Source: a virus | Length of the DNA: 37,681 nt | Direction: 5' to 3' (one strand) | IMG/VR virus record: IMGVR_UViG_3300042559_001825 | Span: 1 to 37,681 of that record | Shown here: positions 7,601 through 23,744 of the stretch, one piece after another | How the letters are laid out: each line of letters begins with the position of its first letter | Position numbering within the stretch: the first letter of the stretch is position 1 | Position numbers and translations under genes: made by a program | The notes under the pieces: generated by a model | The model's input: the letters and a program-made list of their open reading frames with translations, nothing else | Database searches by the model: none | What the model was told of the DNA's origin: nothing

Positions 7601-10377
7601 ATCAATTTTTTATTGATAATGATGGAATTGAAAAAATTAGATTCACATCAATAAAGTACGGCCCAAATGATTGTTCAGTTGAAGAATATTTTGATTATAA
7701 ATTTACATCATTAAATGAACCACAATTAACAACTTGTGGTATTGAGTTAGATTTTTCAAATGAATGTGAGAATGGTGAAACCACCACATACGTTTTAGGT
7801 AGTGAAGATGATTGTAAAATCAAAGGTAATATTACAATTAAAATAACTGGAACCACAATACCGATACAATCGGGTTCAACAATTGATTGGCCAGTATATG
7901 TACATAGAAACTGTGATTTAGGAGTTAACCAATATGAAGGATATTCAATATCGGGAGCAACAATGGATAATCCAGATGGTTGTACTATTTTATTAAGAAA
8001 CGTATATGAAGATGATGTTATTGATTTATTATTTACCGATGCAGCTAACTGTGATTTAAAAGTAAAAATTGAAGGTTTAGGTATAAAATATGTTCAAGGT
8101 GACAAGTTAAACTCAGACCCATCAGATGATATTGTTTATGAAATTGTACCAAAAATACAATATAGAGAATCTTTTAACTACGGTTTAAAAGGTGATACAA
8201 CGGTATTAGTACTTACAGGATTAACACCAACTAATTTAACAAATTATGTTGAACGTGAGGTGGTTAATTTAGTTGCTGGAAATACAATTTTATCAGCAAA
8301 TTACAAAAATTGTAATCAAATTAAAAACCAAGACATTAAGGATGGTTTATTGGAAGATGATTTCTCATTTGTTTATGAATATAATCCAATTACAATTTCA
8401 AAAATAGATTGTTTAGGTTCCGTTAAAAAGAATATTATTGTTGGTAGAACATCAACGGGGGTTTTGGAAACATTTGAAGTTTTACCAACATCAAAACTAA
8501 GAGTATATACCAATAAATCAATTACGATTGAAGAGGGTGGTAATGTTTTAATCGAGAAAAGTAGATTTTATTTCTTTGATGAAAGATTCCCAGAACAATT
8601 ACAAATTGCGGTAGAACAGATTGAACCTTGTTGTGACCACAATAATGATTATTTAGAAAAGGGTGATTTTTTAATAACGGCGGAAGGTAAATTAATTGAA
8701 GTTATATCGGTTGAATTAGATTATTGTACACCTGAAATATATTATCATATAAATGTTACGGGATCACAACCAACTAATTTAATAGTGTTTAATGGTAATA
8801 GTAATCACCAATTATTGTTACAACATAAGTATGACCAATTCAATAGATTTGATTTTAATTTAAATCAGATTTACATAACAGATTCTTGTCCAAATGGAAT
8901 ACCTGAACCTAGAGTTATTGGCTCATTACCTTGTGACATGGATGGTAATATTGCTTTAGCTTGTGGTGATGAATACCCAATTCCAACACCGACACCAACA
9001 AGTACACCAACCCCAACCAATACATCGACATCAACACCTACGTCAACACCAACTAGCACACCTACATCAACACCAACTAGTACACCAACTAGTACGCCTA
9101 CATCAACACCAACTAGTACACCAACTAGTACGCCTACGATTACACCAACAATTACTAGTACACCTACATCAACCGCAACACCAACCGAAACATTGGATTG
9201 TAACTTCGATGTGGATTTAGAAACTACAATAACAACACCAACACCTACTAATACTCCAACATCGACTTCAACATTAGATTGTGATTTCGACGTGGATTTA
9301 GATATTGTTATAATAACTCCTACACCAACCAACACACCAACTTCAACTTCTACATTAGATTGTGATTTTGGTGTAAATGTGGTTATACCAACACCAACAC
9401 CGACTATTACGCCAACAATAACCGCAACCCCAACTTCTACATTAGATTGTGATTTTGGTGTAAATGTGGTAATCCCAACACCGACCCCAACTAATACACC
9501 TACTGGTACACCAACCAATACACCTACATCAACAGAGACTGGTACACCAACAATAACTTCTACTCCAACTACAACATTAGATTGTGATTTTGGTGTAAAT
9601 GTGGTTATACCAACTCCTACTCCGACTAACACTCCAACTAGTACACCAACTTCAACTTCTACATTAGATTGTGATTTTGATGTGGACTTAGATGTGGTTA
9701 TACCAACACCAACACCAACATCAACCCCAACGTCCACTTCGACACCAACAATAACTTCAACACCAACACCAACAGAAGTTGAGTGTGTAAGTTCTTTCAC
9801 GATAACTGAGGTTTTTGACCCATCTAACGTGGTTGTTAATTATGAAATTTTTAAAATTAGTTCAAACGCTACAGGTTATGTTACGGACGGAACAACAAAT
9901 GGACAAACTTTACGTAAAACAATCGCAATTAATGGATCAAGTACTATAACTGGAGTAACAACAAATGATAGTTTATTCTTAGGTTGGAGTAATGTTAAAG
10001 GAGAAGGTAATTTAATACAAACTAATCCAGTGTTAACACATAACCCAACAAAAAATACAACATATTACGCCATCATTAAAAAGAATGCGCCGATTAGTAA
10101 AGACTTCTGTTATTACCCTGAAAATAGTGATTTAAATGATATTTGTTTGGCGTGTTTAACAACAAGAAAAATATACTTTAATTCAACCGATTATGAAAAT
10201 AGTGGATTTGAATCAATCACTTGGTATCAAGATGAAAATTTAACAATACCTGCGGATAATGGATTCTATAAAGATTCGGAAATAAATGTAGTAACACCAA
10301 TAATATACGAATTAACAACGGGCACATCAACTAAATATGGTTTATGTGGACCTGCTGGATTCATATATTGTGAATGA
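4675..10377 (+). CDS. Giant tail/baseplate protein with gpI-like region and Thr/Pro stalk
   Basis: At 1900 aa this is the largest protein here. Residues about 330-490 resemble phage tail protein I/baseplate proteins: a helical segment ending in [21 protein letters not shown], with the characteristic KGTR at 451-454. The middle (about 490-1430) is an unrecognised beta-rich, Cys-containing region. Residues about 1436-1702 form a Thr/Pro stalk of (T/S)xTPT units interrupted by six LDCxF(D/G)V modules. Residues about 1703-1790 look like an InlB/Listeria-Bacteroides B-repeat ([11 protein letters not shown] and later TTYYAII). The C-terminal 110 residues are unrecognised. The layout suggests a baseplate anchor carrying a long spike or fibre with a distal tip. 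This domain reading is by eye. Confidence 0.85.
8980..9778 (+). repeat. Thr/Pro-rich stalk with six LDC modules in the 1900-aa protein
   Basis: This stretch encodes runs of (T/S)xTPT built from short CCA/CCT-ACA/ACT-AGT codon blocks, broken by six copies of an LDC-x-F-(D/G)-V module near 9193, 9277, 9355, 9444, 9577 and 9664. Three of the modules (LDCDFGVNV) are almost identical in DNA. The same two-part pattern recurs in the genes at 14174 and 15271. The opposite strand reads as a long Val/Gly artefact in one frame. Confidence 0.9.
9061..9132 (+). repeat. Perfect 36-bp tandem duplication
   Basis: Two exact 36-bp copies (9061-9096 and 9097-9132) lie head to tail inside the Thr/Pro stalk and encode [12 protein letters not shown] twice. 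A partly matching copy precedes them. Exact identity including synonymous positions points to recent slippage or unequal exchange; a gain or loss keeps the reading frame. Confidence 0.85.
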
Positions 10378-14173: not shown

Positions 14174-15250
14174 ATGAGATATTTTTATGTAAGGATTGAT
14201 GCGGGATTTTCGAATAGTATATATAGCATATACTCTACGTTACCACCTGCGGGAAATCTTGCATTATTGTTTGACCCAATAGGTAGTACATTAGTTGCTA
14301 CTGGATTAACATATACCCAATTAACAACAGGTGATGGAGTTTTAGTTGAAGTCCCAGGAGACACACAAAGAATTTACTTATACGATGCTGATGGTAATTT
14401 TTGTTCTGTTGGTATTGAAAACGACATAAGAGTTAACTCCTTACCGGTTCCAACACCAACACCAACGCCAACACCTACTAGTACACCAACATCAACTTCA
14501 ACTTTAGATTGTTATTTTGATGTGGAATTAAATACGGTTATAATAACCCCAACACCTACTAGTACACCTACATCAACTTCTACATTAGATTGTAGTTTTG
14601 ATGTGGATTTAGACACTGTTTACCCAACACCAACACCTACTAGTACACCTACATCAACTTCAACGTTAGATTGTAGTTTTGATGTGGATTTAGAAACCGC
14701 AATATACACACCAACACCTACTAATACCCCAACGTCAACACCTACTAGTACACCAACAGGACCTGATGATTTGTGTTTTGAATTTGAATTAACGGAAATA
14801 GTATACGATAGAACATTAACATTCACAAGTTACCAACAAGGTCTATTTACATTTGAATTATCCGAACCGATTAATACTGATCTTTATATAAATTTTGCAC
14901 ATATTAGTTCTTTTGAACTTTATGGATGTTATGGTACCCAATACAATCAACCCGATGAATTTGGTGGAAATACATTAATCGAATCATTAAAAATAAATGG
15001 TGGTAGTACAATCGGCACTAAAATGGGTAAAACACCATTAACGGGAAGTACCTTATCGTATAAATTTTCACAAGAAATAAGTGTGGTTAATGATGATTTA
15101 GCGAGTAATGTGTGGGTATCAAATAATGACACGTTCACATATGATGGTTTAGTAATAAAGGTAATTATTAATAATGATTGTCAAAATTATACTATAATAA
15201 CTCCAACAGAGACACCAACACCAACTAACACACCAACACCACCATTTTAA
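14174..15250 (+). CDS. Stalked fibre/adhesin protein with three LDC modules
   Basis: A 358-aa protein with three parts. Residues 1-90 are a compact N-terminal head; its LVATGLTYTQL string resembles LATGVTYNNI in the Hint protein at 19133, so the heads may share a fold. Residues about 94-196 are a Thr/Pro stalk with three LDC modules ([27 protein letters not shown]). Residues about 197-345 are a beta-rich domain with no known motif, followed by a short [11 protein letters not shown] tail. There is no signal peptide, as expected for a virion protein assembled in the cytoplasm. A short fibre or decoration protein is the best guess. Confidence 0.8.
   Translation: MRYFYVRIDAGFSNSIYSIYSTLPPAGNLALLFDPIGSTLVATGLTYTQLTTGDGVLVEVPGDTQRIYLYDADGNFCSVGIENDIRVNSLPVPTPTPTPTPTSTPTSTSTLDCYFDVELNTVIITPTPTSTPTSTSTLDCSFDVDLDTVYPTPTPTSTPTSTSTLDCSFDVDLETAIYTPTPTNTPTSTPTSTPTGPDDLCFEFELTEIVYDRTLTFTSYQQGLFTFELSEPINTDLYINFAHISSFELYGCYGTQYNQPDEFGGNTLIESLKINGGSTIGTKMGKTPLTGSTLSYKFSQEISVVNDDLASNVWVSNNDTFTYDGLVIKVIINNDCQNYTIITPTETPTPTNTPTPPF
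14449..14760 (+). repeat. Thr/Pro stalk with three LDC modules
   Basis: This is a second occurrence of the alternating pattern: [16 protein letters not shown] blocks followed by FDVDL-type strands and then another TP run. The DNA of the repeats is close to that in the genes at 4675 and 15271, including the recurring ACTAGTACACC codon block. Confidence 0.88.
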
Positions 15251-15270: not shown

Positions 15271-18200
15271 ATGAAAATATCGTTCATATATAGTGGAATA
15301 TACGCATCACATTTATCATGGCAAGGCTATGATGGTGATACTTTATATACCCTAAGATGGAACAGTTCTTCACAGTACGATTCTTTTTGGGAAATTGAGG
15401 GTTGGTTGTATGACGGTCAACCTAGAAACTACACAACAGACGAAATACCAGTAACAGGATGGACCTTATATAATGCGGTAAATAATACTGCAACGTTTAA
15501 TGTTAATTTAGGGGTATGTCCAACACCAACACCAACTAATACACCTACTAGCACGCCAACCAACACACCTACTATAACATTAGATTGTAGCTTCGATGTG
15601 GATTTAGAAACTACAATAACAACACCAACACCAACCAATACACCGACTAGTACCCCAACATCAACGGAGACTAGTACACCAACAATAACCCCAACATCGA
15701 CCTCAACATTAGATTGTAGCTTCGATGTGGATGTGGTAATACCGACTCCTACACCTACTAGTACACCAACTGCAACTAGTACACCTACCAGTACATCAAC
15801 TGGTACACCTACTATAACTAATACACCAACTACAACATTAGATTGTAATTTTGATGTAGACTTAGACGTGGTAATACCAACACCAACCCCAACTAGTACA
15901 CCAACTAACACACCTACTAGTACCCCAACATCAACGGAGACTAACACACCAACATTCACACCTACTAGTACATCAACTGGTACCCCAACAATAACCGCAA
16001 CACCAACTACAACATTAGATTGTAACTTCGATGTTGATTTGAATGTAATTATACCAACACCAACTCCAACTAATACACCTACTAACACACCTACTAGTAC
16101 TCCAACATCAACGGAGACTAGCACGCCAACTAATACGCCAACATCCACACCAACTAGTACACCTACTACAACCAATACACCAACTAGTACACCAACATCA
16201 ACTAGTACACCTACTATAACTAATACACCTACAGTAACATTAGATTGTAACTTTGGTGTAGGTTTAGTTGTTAATTACCCACCAACAGACATTTATTTAA
16301 CAAATAATAGTATCAATGAGAATAGTTCAATTAACACTATTATCGGTACACTTTCAACTACATCAATAGACAGTAGTGATACATACACATATTCCATTGT
16401 TGCGGGTTCAAGTAACTTCAATATATCTGGTACATCATTAAGAAGTTCACAAAGCTTTAACTATGAAGCCGCAACATCACATAGTGTTACAATAAGAGTT
16501 ACCGATAGTGTTGGTCAATATTTTGATAAGGCATTTACAATAAATGTTAATAATGTTAACGAAACACCATACGGTATTAACCTTAACAATAATTCACAAC
16601 AAGAAAATACTGCAACAGGTACGACTATAGGAACATTTACATCATTAGATGTTGATTCTGGAGATACGTTTACATATTCATTACATGATACAGGTAGTTA
16701 CCCAGATAATAGTAATTTTACATTATCTAGTTCTGGTGTATTGAAAAACTCAACAGTGTTTAATTATGAAGCAAAAACTTCGTACACTATTAGAGTTAGA
16801 ACAACAGATGCGGGTGGTTTAACATACGACGCTACATTTACTATAAATGTAACAAATCAAAATGAAACACCTACAAACATTAATTTAAGTTCATCATCAA
16901 TATCTGAAAATGTTCCAACAGGTACAACTATTGGTACATTATCAGCAACAGATCCTGATTCTGGAGATACGTTTACATTTAGCTTAGTTGATGGTGGAAC
17001 ATATCCTGATAATTCAGCGTTCAATATATCTGGTACATCATTAAGAAGTTCAGCGATTTTTAACTACGAATCAAAATCATCTTATTCAATAAGAGTTAGA
17101 GCTACCGATGCTGGCGGTTTAACATTTGATAAAACATTAACAATAACAATTACAAACGTTACAATAACTGTAACGGCTAGTCAAACAACGGCCATAACAT
17201 GTAATGGTGGTAATCAAGGAGTTATAACGGTTTCAGATGCATCGGGAGGTACGGCTAATTACACATATTCAAAAGATGGTACAAACTATCAAGTTAGTAC
17301 ATCATTTGGTAGTTTGACTGCTGGGTCATATACAATATATGCTAAAGACTCATATGGTGAAGTTGGGTCAACAATTGTAAATGTTACACAACCTGCGGTA
17401 GTTTCGGTATCAGCGTCTGGAACTAACCCAACTTGTTTTGGTGGAACTGATGGTTCTATTTCAGTATCAAGTGCTACTGGTGGAAATGGAACATACACAT
17501 ATTCTAAAGACGGTACAAATTATCAAGCTAGTGCAACATTTAGTAGTATCGGAAGCGGTTCATACACAATCTACGCTAAAGATGGTAATGGTTGTGTTGG
17601 GTCAACTTCTGTGACATTAAATAGAACACAAGTAACTGCAACAGTATCACAAACTAATGCAACATGTAATGGTGGTAGTGATGGTTCAATCTCTGTTTCA
17701 GGTTTAGCTGGAGGTCAAGGTGGACCATACTCAACTAAATTGAATTCTGGTGGAACATATCAAGTAATAACAACTTCTAGAACATATTCATCACTATCCG
17801 CTGGGGCAAATACAATTTACGTGAAGGATAGTGCGGGTTGTGAAAACACATATTCTGTTACATTAACACAACCAACCGCTGTAACTATCTCATTATCTTC
17901 ATCTTCGGCACCAACTTGTTTCGATGGATTTAATGGTAGTATCGTTGTAAGTGCTGGTGGAGGAAATGGATCACATCAGTACAGAATAAACAGTGGTTCT
18001 TGGCAATCAAGTGGAACATTTAGTAGTTTAGGTTCGGGGTCATATACTTTACAATCAAGAGATACCAATGGTTGTGAGTCTTCAACAATAAATGTGAATA
18101 TCACAAAATCGGCACCAACTGCAAGTGTTTCACAAGGTAATGTTACTTGTAATGGTGGATCAAATGGTTCAATTAGTGTATCGAGTCCATCAGGTGGAAG

Positions 18201-19077
18201 TGGTTCTGGATATACATATTCAAGAGACGGAGTAAATTACCAATCAAGCGGTACGTTTAGTAGCTTAACCGCCGGTGGTTATGACATCTACATAAAAGAT
18301 GGTGTTGGATGTGTAAATTATTTAACAACCATAACAATTACTCAACCATCGGCTCAAGCGGCAACAATAACTGTTAACACATTTGCAACTTGTAATGGTG
18401 TGGCGGATGGTGCAATTACATTATCTTCTTCTGGAGGAACATTCCCTAAGACATATAGATTATATGCTGACACATCGGCACCTTATGTTACTTGTGGCGG
18501 AACTTTAGTTGGAACATACACAGGTGTAACTTCAGGTGGACCATCCGTATATGTTACGGGTATTGACGAATATGGATATTGTCTTGAAGTTACAGATAAC
18601 AATGGTTGCGTAACCAATAGTAGTGTTGTTGAAACAACCGCTTGTTCTGGAACTTGTTACACAATAACATTACCGCAAAGTATTTTAACATATAATGGTG
18701 AGAGTTTATATATAAATTACACAAAAACGAATGGTACACTTGTATCCCGACCATATTCTGATTTCCCGGCAGAGTTTTCAGCAAATAACGATTATATAAC
18801 CAATATTTGTTCAAATTTCCAACCTTCATACCAATACGGTACAAGTGGTAATGGATTTTTAGATCCTGGAGTTGGAATTACAATAAACGGAAAATGTAAC
18901 GATAGTCAATGGTGTGGAGGTGCGGACCCTTATGTTCCACCAACTGGTGGAGGCGGAGGAGGTGGTGGTACCACTTATTCTTGTAAGGAGTCTCCAGGTG
19001 GACCATGTAGTGATTACAACTCACCGTGTTCATCGTTAGGTTTAATGAATTGTAGTGATTTGGAAGAAATTACATAA
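15271..19077 (+). CDS. Modular adhesin: Thr/Pro-LDC stalk, three cadherin-like repeats, six SprB-like repeats
   Basis: A 1268-aa protein. Residues 1-80 are a unique head rich in Trp and Tyr. Residues about 83-330 are a stalk with five LDC modules. Residues about 337-630 hold three cadherin-like repeats with IxENxxxGTxIGT, [12 protein letters not shown] and FNYExxxSYxIRVRxTD signatures. Residues about 631-1130 hold six SprB-like repeats, each with a T/NxTCxGGxDGSIxVS start and a [15 protein letters not shown] end. The C-terminal 140 residues are Cys-rich with a seven-glycine run. SprB repeats are typical of surface adhesins that move over gliding Bacteroidota cells, so a phage receptor-binding fibre is likely. 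The role is inferred from domain content. Confidence 0.85.
15517..16260 (+). repeat. Thr/Pro stalk with five LDC modules
   Basis: Five LDC(S/N)F(D/G)V modules near 15582, 15711, 15839, 16015 and 16240 alternate with long (T/S)xTPT runs. Positions 15591-15632 are identical to 9204-9245 in the 1900-aa gene, which shows exchange or duplication between the two genes. Confidence 0.88.
17160..18660 (+). repeat. Six tandem SprB-like repeats (protein level)
   Basis: Six repeats of about 80 residues are marked by Cys-Asn/Phe-Gly-Gly (ITCNGG, PTCFGG, ATCNGG, PTCFDG, VTCNGG, ATCNGV) and by a closing KDxxGC-type turn. DNA identity between copies is only moderate, so they are older than the stalk repeats. 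Confidence 0.75.
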
Positions 19078-19132: not shown

Positions 19133-20068
19133 ATGGGAACATTTAACGCAACATTTACATTAACGGCAGGTTCATCAGCGAACGTTGGTGGATTTAATAT
19201 CGTAGGAAATCCTGGGTCGGTAAGTATCGCAACAGGAGTAAGTAGAGCATCATTAGCCACAGGTGTGACATATAATAATATTGCAGATACTGTAACAGAA
19301 TTTACAATAACAAGTACTGGTGACTGTACAAATTCGGTAACTGTGCTAACTGCTCCGGAACCAACACCAACACCAACATCAACTGTATATACATATGATT
19401 GCTTTGAGGGATCTTGTATTCAAGTGGTGGGAACAGATGGTCAATATGGAACATTACAATTATGTCAGGGATCTTGTACTGTAGATCCTTGTTTCATCGA
19501 AGGAACTAACATTACGTTAGCTGATGGTTCACAAGTATTAATTGAAACATTACAAGTTGGCGATATTTTAAAATCATTCGCAATTGACACTTTACCGTTA
19601 TATTCTGACGATAATACGGTATTAACAACTTGGAGTACGGAAAATTTAACAGGTACATTATCGACTGCAACAATTATGTCAATCACACCAGTTCAAGTTA
19701 GTGAAATTGTAGTGATTAATGATTTATTAAAAACAACATCTAACCACAAACATTTAGTTAAACACGATGGTGTTTGGTCATTTGTAATGGCTAGTAAGGT
19801 TGTTGTTGGAGATATAATGATAGACATTAACAATAATGAAGTAGAAGTAACATCTGTTGAAACTCAAGAAGTTGAGAAAACAGTTTACAAAATGGACGTT
19901 GAAACACTTGACGTATTCTACGCTGAGAACATATTAACACACAACATTAAACCAAGTGGAGATACATGGGATTGTACACCTCAAGGTTGTGTTCAAGCAG
20001 TTGATGGGGATTACGCCACATTACAGGACTGTCAAAACGCTCCTTGTGTTCAAGGTCCACAACAGTAA
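19133..20068 (+). CDS. Hint-domain (intein-like) protein flanked by paired Cys modules
   Basis: A 311-aa protein. Residues 1-75 are a head domain, followed by a short PTPTPTST linker. Residues 88-115 form a Cys module (C90, C95, C111, C115). Residues 120-271 are a Hint domain: C120 in CFIEGTNITLADGS, a GD in QVGDILKS, a TTSNHKHL block B with H205, and a C-terminal ENILTHN ending at N271. Residues 279-305 repeat the Cys module (C281, C286, C300, C305, with DGxYxTLQxCQ in both). The residue after N271 is Ile, not Cys/Ser/Thr, so ordinary intein splicing is unlikely. Self-cleavage of the bacterial intein-like type is more plausible. No homing endonuclease fits in the short domain. Confidence 0.85.
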   Translation: MGTFNATFTLTAGSSANVGGFNIVGNPGSVSIATGVSRASLATGVTYNNIADTVTEFTITSTGDCTNSVTVLTAPEPTPTPTSTVYTYDCFEGSCIQVVGTDGQYGTLQLCQGSCTVDPCFIEGTNITLADGSQVLIETLQVGDILKSFAIDTLPLYSDDNTVLTTWSTENLTGTLSTATIMSITPVQVSEIVVINDLLKTTSNHKHLVKHDGVWSFVMASKVVVGDIMIDINNNEVEVTSVETQEVEKTVYKMDVETLDVFYAENILTHNIKPSGDTWDCTPQGCVQAVDGDYATLQDCQNAPCVQGPQQ

Positions 20069-20090: not shown

Positions 20091-20119
20091 AAAAAACCCC
20101 TTCACAAAAGGGGTTTTTT
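20091..20119 (+). terminator. Intrinsic terminator after the Hint gene
   Basis: ACCCCTT and AAGGGGT form a perfect stem around a CACA loop, extended by an A-run that pairs with the following T-run. It lies 22 bases after the stop of the Hint gene and just before the next TATTTATG motif, so it separates two transcription units. The A/T flanks could also let it work on the other strand. Confidence 0.9.
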
Positions 20120-20140
20120 TGTTTAAATTTTATATGGTTG

Positions 20141-20153: not shown

Positions 20154-21932
20154 ATGAGTTTTAAAATTAAGTTAAATAACATTACAGTACCTTCGGGTAA
20201 TCAGTTCAAAGTGTTCTACAAATTAGATAGTAGAACACCAGGATCTGTCGCATCACAAGGTGATAATGCTTGGGGTACGTTATATGGAACTTATACAGGA
20301 GGGACAACAACAAATATTGAAATTGATTTTTTACCAATCATATCTAACCCATATGGTAAACAACATTGGTTTAAAATTTTAGATACGATTACGGGGAGTT
20401 ATATTATAGAAAACATTTATATTCACGAATATGAATATTACACCCAATGTGTACCAACCCCAACACCTACTAATACACCAACATCTACACCTACTAATAC
20501 ACCAACTAGCACACCAACTAGTACATCAACACCGACTATTACACCTACAGGTACTTCAACAAGTACTCCAACATCGACTGTCGACCTAACAGTCACACCT
20601 ACCATAACAGGCACCCCAACTATAACTAGTACACCGATTATAACTGATACACCTACTATAACAAGTACACCAACACCAACAGAAGTAACAATTACAGTAA
20701 AATATCATGGACCAACAGAACCAATTGGAAATTTTGCATGTAATACCGGTACTGATATACAAGTTGTAATGGATAACACTGTTTTCTGTAATGCAACAAC
20801 ATATGTTAGTAGTTATTTCAATTCGATAGGAACTGGAACTTTTTGGATATCATATAATGGTAGTTACAGACAAATTTACCATGGTACTGGAAACAGTGCA
20901 ACACAATCTGGTACATGTAAAACATGTGTGGGAGTTGAACCAACATATTACTACTACGCAATGGGTGATTGTAATGATATGAGATATGCGGGTACTGAAA
21001 CAACCATTTTTGGTTTTGGAGCACCAGTAGTGGTTCCTGTTTGTATGACCTCCGCACAGATTACTCAATGGTATTCTACAGCTAATTTCGCACAACAAAC
21101 GTTAAGTATTGATTACGATGACCCTTGTGCCTTTGGTGAAGGTTATTCAGGTGTAACAGTTGGTAGAAGTACAACAGAATTAACAGAAGGAACTGTTTAT
21201 CTTGTTAGTGGACAATGTTTATCTGTTATTTCTATTAACGCAGAATACGTTGGAGAATGGGGTGTTGATTTAGACGGCAGAACTCCAATAGGTGGATCTA
21301 ACCCATGTGGTTCTTGTGACCCACCATTCACTGGTTATACATTAACAGGATATAGTGGTGTGACTTGCGATACAGGTGAAAATATCCTTGCGTTAACAAT
21401 ATTAGGATCGTTAGTGATTGGTAAGGTTTATGGAATACAACTATACAACGGAGCTACTCCTGCGGGTGATGCTAGATGTATGACTATCAACGCCAATCTT
21501 GGTCCTCAACTTACCATTACCGACCCAACAACTAATCCATATTCAGGATATCAAATATCAGATGGGGGACCATTTGTTTTAGGACAACCAATGTTCCAAG
21601 GATATGTGGATTGTCCAGCATGTAACAGTGTACCGAAAAAATATAAAATAGATGGTGTAAGGTGTGATAACGCAAGTTACAGTGTAACTGTGTGGTCCGA
21701 TACATTACCAACAATTGGAATTAATGATACGTTTAGAGTTAACGATTCATTCTTAAGTACATTCTGTTGGAAAGTAACCGCAAAAGATAACTATAAAACG
21801 GTTGTTTATAGTACACCTGAATTTAGTATATTGGATACGGGATGTGCACCTTGTGATGGGTCGTTACCATCAACTCCTACCCCAACTGATGGAGATGGAG
21901 GTTCTGGAGGTGGAGGAGGGTCCATAACTTAA
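20154..21932 (+). CDS. Stalked fibre/adhesin protein with large Cys-rich C-terminal region
   Basis: A 592-aa protein. Residues 1-98 are a head domain that includes RTPGSVASQGDNAWGTLYGTY. Residues about 100-180 are a Thr/Pro stalk ([12 protein letters not shown], then [14 protein letters not shown]) without LDC modules. Residues about 181-575 are a beta-rich region with many Cys residues, often as CxxC (CKTC, CGSC, CPAC, CAPC). It ends in a short PTPTDGDG linker and a glycine-rich tail. The start follows a terminator and a TATTTATG motif. Repeated CxxC pairs suggest metal or disulfide stabilisation of several small domains. A receptor-binding or decoration protein is the likely role; the domain family is not recognised. 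Confidence 0.8.
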   Translation: MSFKIKLNNITVPSGNQFKVFYKLDSRTPGSVASQGDNAWGTLYGTYTGGTTTNIEIDFLPIISNPYGKQHWFKILDTITGSYIIENIYIHEYEYYTQCVPTPTPTNTPTSTPTNTPTSTPTSTSTPTITPTGTSTSTPTSTVDLTVTPTITGTPTITSTPIITDTPTITSTPTPTEVTITVKYHGPTEPIGNFACNTGTDIQVVMDNTVFCNATTYVSSYFNSIGTGTFWISYNGSYRQIYHGTGNSATQSGTCKTCVGVEPTYYYYAMGDCNDMRYAGTETTIFGFGAPVVVPVCMTSAQITQWYSTANFAQQTLSIDYDDPCAFGEGYSGVTVGRSTTELTEGTVYLVSGQCLSVISINAEYVGEWGVDLDGRTPIGGSNPCGSCDPPFTGYTLTGYSGVTCDTGENILALTILGSLVIGKVYGIQLYNGATPAGDARCMTINANLGPQLTITDPTTNPYSGYQISDGGPFVLGQPMFQGYVDCPACNSVPKKYKIDGVRCDNASYSVTVWSDTLPTIGINDTFRVNDSFLSTFCWKVTAKDNYKTVVYSTPEFSILDTGCAPCDGSLPSTPTPTDGDGGSGGGGGSIT

Positions 21933-22616: not shown

Positions 22617-23744
22617 ATGTCATTTCCATCAACAATTACAATAACAGGGAGTACTAACATCACAAATTTCGACATTTACCAATGTCCAACTTCAGCCTGC
22701 ACAGGTTGCGTCGCAATCACTGGTAGTACTGGTGAAGATGTGAGTAGGATGAAATTATTAACAGGACACACTGTTACGGTTACTCAAGGATATAGATATA
22801 TTAAATTAGTGGCGAACACACCAACTTGTAACAATTCAGTTTGTATGGAAGTTGTTGGTATACCAGCATCAACACCCACACCAACTAGTACGCCTACACC
22901 AACGTCAACAATTGGAGCCACTAGTACACCAACTATAACACCTACTAGTACAACAACATCTACCCCAACTATAGGAGTAACCCCAACACCAACTATAACT
23001 GGTACACCTACTATAACTGGTACACCTACTATAACTGGTACACCTACTATAACGGGCACACCAACTGTAACTAATAGTAGTGTTCAAATTACTAATTGTG
23101 TAAGATTGGTAAAGGATGATGCAATAACAGGTACTGATTGTGCATTTGATAGAGTCCAAAGACACGAAGTGACGTTATATGACCCAACTGGTGCTAATAT
23201 ACAAGTTGCCACATATGATATAACCGTTACTTTAAGTGGTACGGATGCTGGCGTCTCAACAACGTGGGATTTAATTATTGAGACTGGACAATCATCGGCG
23301 TATGAAGATATTGTTACTCGTGAGACTCCAGATTGTGGTAACAGAGATGGTATGATAATTAGATATGTTTCTGGAATATCATCAATATCACCTAATAATA
23401 TCGATGAATGTGAGCCAGTACCACCACCAACAGGAACTACACTAAATACATTCTACCGTGGTCAAGGACTTTCAACTAGTATTGCTCATTGTGGAACTAA
23501 TTACATAATTAATTCACCACTCTTCTCAACCGCCACAATCATTAGTGGGTTGATGAATCAAACCGTTTACACCACTATTGATGGTACTACAGCATTTAAT
23601 GGGTTAGGTCTTTGGTATCCAGTTGCTTTAGATAATGCAACAAACACATTAAATGGACAATATAACGTTATAAAAATAAATTCGAATGGAGGTGTTGAGG
23701 ATATTGCGTTTGTGGCTGATTGCGGTGGAGTGGCTCCATTATAA
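22617..23744 (+). CDS. Stalked fibre/adhesin protein with TITGTP tandem repeats
   Basis: A 375-aa protein. Residues 1-80 are a Cys-containing head (CPTSACTGC). Residues about 84-155 are a Thr/Pro stalk that ends in four TITGTP units. The remaining 220 residues are a beta-rich C-terminal region with Cys in the strings ETPDCGNRDG and AHCGTNYI. The head-stalk-tail layout matches the genes at 14174 and 20154, but the heads and tails differ, so these look like variants on one architectural plan. A four-base spacing from the TATTTATA motif to the ATG suggests strong late expression of a leaderless message. The exact ligand or virion position is unknown. Confidence 0.8.
   Translation: MSFPSTITITGSTNITNFDIYQCPTSACTGCVAITGSTGEDVSRMKLLTGHTVTVTQGYRYIKLVANTPTCNNSVCMEVVGIPASTPTPTSTPTPTSTIGATSTPTITPTSTTTSTPTIGVTPTPTITGTPTITGTPTITGTPTITGTPTVTNSSVQITNCVRLVKDDAITGTDCAFDRVQRHEVTLYDPTGANIQVATYDITVTLSGTDAGVSTTWDLIIETGQSSAYEDIVTRETPDCGNRDGMIIRYVSGISSISPNNIDECEPVPPPTGTTLNTFYRGQGLSTSIAHCGTNYIINSPLFSTATIISGLMNQTVYTTIDGTTAFNGLGLWYPVALDNATNTLNGQYNVIKINSNGGVEDIAFVADCGGVAPL
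22992..23063 (+). repeat. 18-bp tandem repeat, four copies
   Basis: Three exact copies of ACTATAACTGGTACACCT (22992-23009, 23010-23027, 23028-23045) are followed by a fourth with three changes (23046-23063). Each encodes TITGTP, so copy-number change alters stalk length in steps of six residues without a frameshift. Confidence 0.88.

Follow-up and report, generated by a model that had tools for sequence, protein, structure and literature searches.

The gene at positions 19,133 to 20,068 of the window (the whole 37,681-nt stretch that we analysed, IMG/VR record IMGVR_UViG_3300042559_001825) encodes a 311-aa protein, here called P0001, in which an intein-like Hint domain was proposed to lie between two cysteine modules. 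This locus raises the question of what a domain with the residues of a self-cleaving device would do at such a place in a phage protein.

Domain layout of P0001

Translation of the ORF gives, in order, an N-terminal domain, a Pro-Thr (PT) linker, Cys module 1, the tetrapeptide TVDP, the Hint domain, the heptapeptide IKPSGDT, and Cys module 2 (Table 1). The ORF and its coordinates, C120, N271, I272, the spans C90 to C115 and C281 to C305, and the DGxYxTLQxCQ motif shared by the two modules all stand in the sequence as the initial annotation had described them. The N-terminal domain is predicted to be beta-rich and is the probable anchor of the protein; the linker that follows it resembles the long PT linkers of neighboring proteins, with PT repeats in ORFs 4675, 14174, 15271, 20154, and 22617. 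A strong terminator-like hairpin 3' of the ORF suggests that transcription would end directly after the Hint gene.

Table 1. Features of the P0001 gene (coordinates are positions in the window)
Feature	Coordinates	Strand	Basis
N-terminal domain, residues 1-77	19133..19363	+	Conserved across syntenic phages; N-domain HMM matches in 15 distinct syntenic loci
Pro-Thr linker, residues 75-85	19355..19387	+	Translation
Cys module 1, residues 86-116 (C90, C95, C111, C115)	19388..19480	+	Module HMM 55.8 bits (not independent, as the HMM seed includes both P0001 modules)
Hint domain, C120-N271, 152 residues, A-type BIL-like	19490..19945	+	Fold, HMM built without P0001, conserved residues
C120 (Cys1), predicted N-terminal cleavage nucleophile, after P119	19490..19492	+	Cys in 53/53 aligned Hint domains
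T202-S-N-H205, block B TxxH	19736..19747	+	T in 52/53, H in 53/53 aligned domains
H270-N271, block G, predicted Asn cyclization site	19940..19945	+	H in 51/53, N in 52/53 aligned domains
+1 Ile and linker IKPSGDT, residues 272-278	19946..19966	+	Sequence
Cys module 2, residues 279-307 (C281, C286, C301, C305)	19967..20053	+	Module HMM 61.4 bits (same HMM, not independent); orthologous to L251 module 2
Likely intrinsic terminator 3' of the gene, hairpin with T-run (AAAAAACCCCTTCACAAAAGGGGTTTTTTT)	20094..20121	+	Read from sequence

Fold and residue pattern of the Hint domain

The likeness of P0001 to Hint domains is beyond chance. A profile HMM of 65 other Hint domains, P0001 not among them, scored 110 bits over residues 120 to 271 (E = 4.5e-30 for a Z of 1e6), and a sequence search of the PDB returned a bacterial intein-like (BIL) domain of Clostridium thermocellum as the top match (E = 0.0047). 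In the profile search that had been proposed as a check, the curated Pfam models Intein_splicing, Hom_end_hint, Hint_2, Hint, and Vint reached 13 to 19 bits on P0001, below their gathering cut-offs of 27 to 36. Structure prediction, also proposed, gave the horseshoe fold of the HINT superfamily at high confidence: the AlphaFold2 model of P0001, made from a 63-row alignment, has a pLDDT of about 97 over most of the Hint domain (mean of 85.3 and pTM of 0.62 for the model). The top five Foldseek matches to the Hint model were all BIL domains. Structural alignment with VIA-align 2 gave a Z of 20.8 to BIL2 of Tetrahymena (6y75; 140 residues, 1.8 Å), 18.9 to the C. thermocellum BIL domain (2lwy; 131 residues, 1.5 Å), 19.0 to the gp41-1 intein, and 17.8 to Hedgehog-C; 82 chains matched at Z of at least 8, and the best 50 of these 82 are BIL domains, inteins, and Hedgehog-C. 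The profile and fold matches bear out the assignment of C120 to N271 as a Hint domain.

A-type BIL domains end in His-Asn and lack a +1 nucleophile; cleavage dominates in them, with some ligation or splicing (PMC4031507). P0001 has C120, the T202-S-N-H205 block, and H270-N271, followed by I272 in place of Cys, Ser, or Thr, and as read from the sequence this is the pattern that marks A-type BIL domains. Residues equivalent to C120, T202, H205, H270, and N271 are conserved in 51 to 53 of 53 aligned Hint domains, a conservation that is partly selected at Cys1 and His-Asn since our scan patterns favored Cys1 and one of them favored His-Asn. The +1 result is free of this selection: 57 of 59 viral Hint domains that end in the block G Asn lack Cys, Ser, or Thr at +1, and two of 59 have one of them. 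The residue otherwise varies freely, Lys being the commonest overall and I, V, K, A, E, and Y occurring in the close group. Because the catalytic residues are kept while the +1 position is free, the pattern fits cleavage chemistry retained without splicing chemistry. Ile at +1 had been taken to argue against normal splicing and to allow cleavage of the bacterial intein-like kind; the intact cleavage residues and non-nucleophilic +1 agree with this, although ligation would still be possible (PMC4031507).

Two complete Cys modules and a Hint-free sister gene

That the Hint domain sits between two related four-Cys modules was borne out: modules 1 and 2 align with a similarity score of 72, against maxima of 56 in 5,000 full shuffles and 51 in 5,000 shuffles with the cysteines fixed. 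The further suggestion that self-processing would part two halves of a repeat did not hold. Both modules are complete, with four Cys each, which places the Hint domain in the linker between them, where it splits neither; an origin of module 2 by Hint splitting a single module was rejected, as both modules are complete and both are present in a sister gene that has no Hint domain.

This sister, found by scanning IMG/VR with an alignment of the Cys modules, is in locus L251 (IMGVR_UViG_3300028027_000194). Its 147-aa product consists of the N-domain, Cys module 1, SGGGSG, and Cys module 2, and P0001 without residues 120 to 271 aligns with it along its length. Gene order is that of the window: homologues of ORFs 2549, 3758, and 4675 precede the 147-aa gene, next comes an 802-aa ORF where the window has ORF 20154, followed by homologues of ORFs 22617, 23775, and 26036. 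DNA identity between window and L251 is high on the left up to ...CAATTATGTCAGGGATCTTGT and resumes on the right near the start of module 2. The L251 protein looks like an "already spliced" P0001 product, and on this comparison the Hint domain is an optional insert in the linker of a preexisting or shared tandem-module payload.

The closest relative of the Hint domain itself is in locus L126 (IMGVR_UViG_3300011268_001990), the only contig returned by a scan for close homologues. It is about 64% identical (63 to 65% in two pieces) and is preceded by the N-domain seen in P0001 and then a Cys module, with an extra domain and a long PT linker upstream of that module; its C-terminus reads HN-NKNLTPN(E), leaving 7 to 8 residues after His-Asn and no second module. 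At about 6300 to 6320 of L126 a one-base frameshift falls inside the Hint domain, with about 64% identity on both sides in different frames, which could reflect either faulty assembly or true decay. Between P0001 and L126, pN (0.27) is lower than pS (0.59) over the first 104 codons. Gain of the Hint domain in the window and loss in L251 would both be compatible with the three loci. The exact arrangement of P0001 was found in one genome only, that of the window, and a single-sequence scan of IMG/VR with P0001 returned no relatives. Neither megablast of the first 25 kb of the window nor tblastn of ORFs 4675 and 23775 gave a match in phage records, and thus no cultured relative was found.

Modules homologous to those of P0001 occur in L251, L126, and L125. 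The same kind of module was also seen in large ORFs of other phages (L125, 7157 to 10291; L253, 1926 to 8405) and in a PT-linked neighbor gene (L271, 729 to 1748); one phage of this set is presumably crAss-like, judging by its gene content. By these occurrences the Cys module is a shared building block. Against phage records, tblastn with Cys module 2 gave weak matches only, to tail tubular proteins of Klebsiella T7-like phages, which we treated as chance (E of 0.04 and above), and the tandem modules of L251 gave none at E up to 1. In a model of the L251 protein the Cys modules have pLDDT below 50 and the N-domain about 90, and no PDB match reached E of 0.001 or better.

A payload-swapping gene among adhesin-like neighbors

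A scan with the neighbor ORF 23775 gave 58 loci, 15 distinct ones having an N-domain gene at the same place, after a giant ORF. The N-domain is well conserved (HMM E-values of 1.9e-15 for L309, 9e-15 for L251, and 4.6e-14 for L322; 63 of 74 residues identical between L251 and L322). Past it, the payload of the window is shared by L251 alone; payloads are unrelated in 14 of the 15 syntenic loci, and none of the 15 genes has a Hint domain. A conserved N-domain with a swapped payload is typical of variable proteins for receptor binding or display.

The Hint domain stands in a gene cluster of adhesin-like proteins, with SprB/cadherin and PT-linked neighbors. The phage-borne ORF 15271 (window 15271 to 19077; 1,268 aa) encodes SprB repeats together with cadherin domains, and with the 33% GC these suggest a Bacteroidota host. 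The repeats of this ORF resemble those of Bacteroidota gliding adhesins. PT-rich 12-nt repeats occur in 73 copies in window regions 8967 to 9783, 14443 to 14785, 15511 to 16287, 20444 to 20674, and 22859 to 23083, and the same regions hold units of about 81 nt with a TLDC(D/N/S)F(D/G)V module, common to several ORFs. Both kinds of repeat are likely a substrate for recombination among adhesin-type genes. From the gene context, and from distant Hint proteins that are annotated as virion structural proteins, we infer that P0001 is in the virion.

Comparison with known Hint families

A-type BIL domains sit in hypervariable regions of nonconserved proteins (PMC7765530), and the variable payload of the P0001 gene matches this location. 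The A-type BIL domain of C. thermocellum is alike in its Hint fold, Cys1, TxxH, His-Asn, missing +1 nucleophile, and variable, nonconserved protein; the Hint domain of P0001 differs from it in being viral, in standing between tandem Cys modules, and in having a Hint-free sister allele, and it is known from sequence and a model. A class 1 intein would carry Cys, Ser, or Thr at +1, where P0001 has I272, and would be inserted where a conserved protein is itself conserved, whereas this domain lies in the linker of a variable one; close relatives that differ in having or lacking the domain at one site, also a mark of class 1 inteins, are seen here in the window and L251. A recent homing intein was rejected, as there is no endonuclease and no +1 nucleophile and +1 is free across the whole subfamily. 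A Hedgehog Hog domain was rejected as well: His-Asn, which a Hog domain lacks at its end, is present, only 40 residues, the Cys module, follow it, and there is no sterol-recognition region. The Pretoxin HINT model (PF07591) scored an E of 0.18, below cut-off, and a C-terminal 40-residue Cys module stands in place of a toxin domain.

BIL2 of Tetrahymena BUBL1 (6y75, 6tmm) is the closest solved fold and likewise lies between two related small modules, which are ubiquitin-like domains in BUBL1 and short Cys modules in P0001. This BIL2 makes isopeptide bonds to lysine (PMC8616854); such conjugation, known for BUBL1, would be conceivable for P0001.

Hint domains in other phage proteins

The initial annotation had expected the use of a Hint domain as a maturation device for a phage decoration protein to be unusual, which proved half right. 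Hint domains are very common in fibre- and adhesin-like phage proteins in IMG/VR, and annotated examples exist in cultured or sequenced phages; uncommon at this locus are a conserved module downstream of the Hint domain and an allele that has no Hint. One block A pattern scan of IMG/VR gave at least 120 matches, and most of those examined were Hint-containing ORFs. In the closest group (L028, L033, L100, L127 to L136, and others) the Hint domain is at the very C-terminus, with 4 to 31 residues after His-Asn, and is preceded by Gly-, Pro-, or PT-rich linkers; a PASTA match in L033 and a weak TSP_1 match in L127 are consistent with binding proteins. The "intein domain" tail proteins of phage NCTB and a "virion structural protein" of Alexandravirus also have a Hint domain with His-Asn near the C-terminus but differ from P0001 in their 25 to 33% identity, their lack of Cys modules, and the roughly 7 to 10 residues that follow His-Asn. 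Tandem Hint arrays with 0 to 9 residues between domains were seen in L187, L010, L049, L067, L118 to L120, L155, L173, and L210; in the 1,838-aa ORF of L187, five successive VHNKCFIAG junctions leave a single Lys between His-Asn and the next Cys1. Searches of the open literature for Hint function in phage virions found nothing, and the papers on phiCbK and CBB describe only inteins that lie in terminase or reductase genes.

Proposed action of the Hint domain and alternatives

We consider it reasonably probable, from the sequence comparisons and the model, that P0001 is a small payload-bearing protein of the virion or adhesin type whose A-type BIL-like Hint domain mainly cleaves at both of its ends and perhaps ligates a fraction. 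The Hint domain would fold, and C120 would form a thioester with P119; N271 would cyclize with the help of H270, releasing a 40-residue tail that carries Cys module 2. Without a +1 nucleophile the thioester would mostly be hydrolyzed to leave a fragment made up of the N-domain and Cys module 1, and in some of the molecules the freed amine of I272 might attack the thioester instead, giving a ligated, Hint-free tandem-module protein. This ligated product would match the architecture that L251 encodes directly, the most striking point of the locus. Pro at -1 and a beta-branched Ile at +1 may slow, respectively, the N-S acyl shift of inteins and Asn cyclization; L028 likewise has Pro at -1. C115 lies five residues before C120, and a disulfide between module 1 and Cys1 acting as a redox brake is only an idea. 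Activity of the Hint domain and its dominant product are, like the place of P0001 in the virion, what we infer.

Ligation could instead be the main outcome, the Hint domain excising itself and P119 being joined to I272, which would make it a nearly neutral intein-like passenger. L251 has the same architecture, at 147 aa against the 159 aa predicted for spliced P0001, and direct amine attack lets A-type BIL domains ligate without a +1 nucleophile (PMC4031507). We nevertheless judge this unlikely, given Ile at +1, the predominance of cleavage products in the A-type BIL domains tested (PMC4031507, PMC7664689), a non-nucleophilic +1 kept throughout the relatives, the lack of a homing endonuclease, and a host gene that is not a conserved one. 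By analogy with BUBL1, the thioester could also attach the N-domain and Cys module 1, by way of the new C-terminus, to a lysine residue on some other protein of the virion or host surface in an ATP-independent conjugation. Tetrahymena BIL2 is the nearest solved structure (Z as above), the flanking by two related modules recalls its ubiquitin-like domains, and the short tails of 4 to 31 residues that most close relatives keep after His-Asn imply that their useful reaction would be N-terminal; yet no acceptor is known, and likeness of fold is no proof of such an activity, so that we rate conjugation as improbable, at best on a par with ligation as the main outcome. Lower still we place an inactive Hint domain that would be either a spacer or one more folded domain of the payload. 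Payloads are freely swapped in this gene and the Hint domain of L126 is frameshifted, and the domain could be dying or a mere spacer in this phage, but P0001 retains every residue needed for cleavage, and the viral family conserves these residues while +1 and other positions vary. Cleavage at both ends remains the reading that we favor.

Implications

In proteins of uncultured phages, Hint domains that keep the cleavage residues but not the splicing nucleophile are very common, and our search of the open literature found no paper that states their role. In the window and L251 one and the same gene occurs with and without a Hint domain at one site, a natural pair that makes the role of the domain directly testable. 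If conjugation were true, the Hint-minus sister phage would assemble without the Hint device. Should the Hint domain prove to cut or conjugate, variable, adhesin-type phage proteins would gain a self-processing step in their assembly or display.
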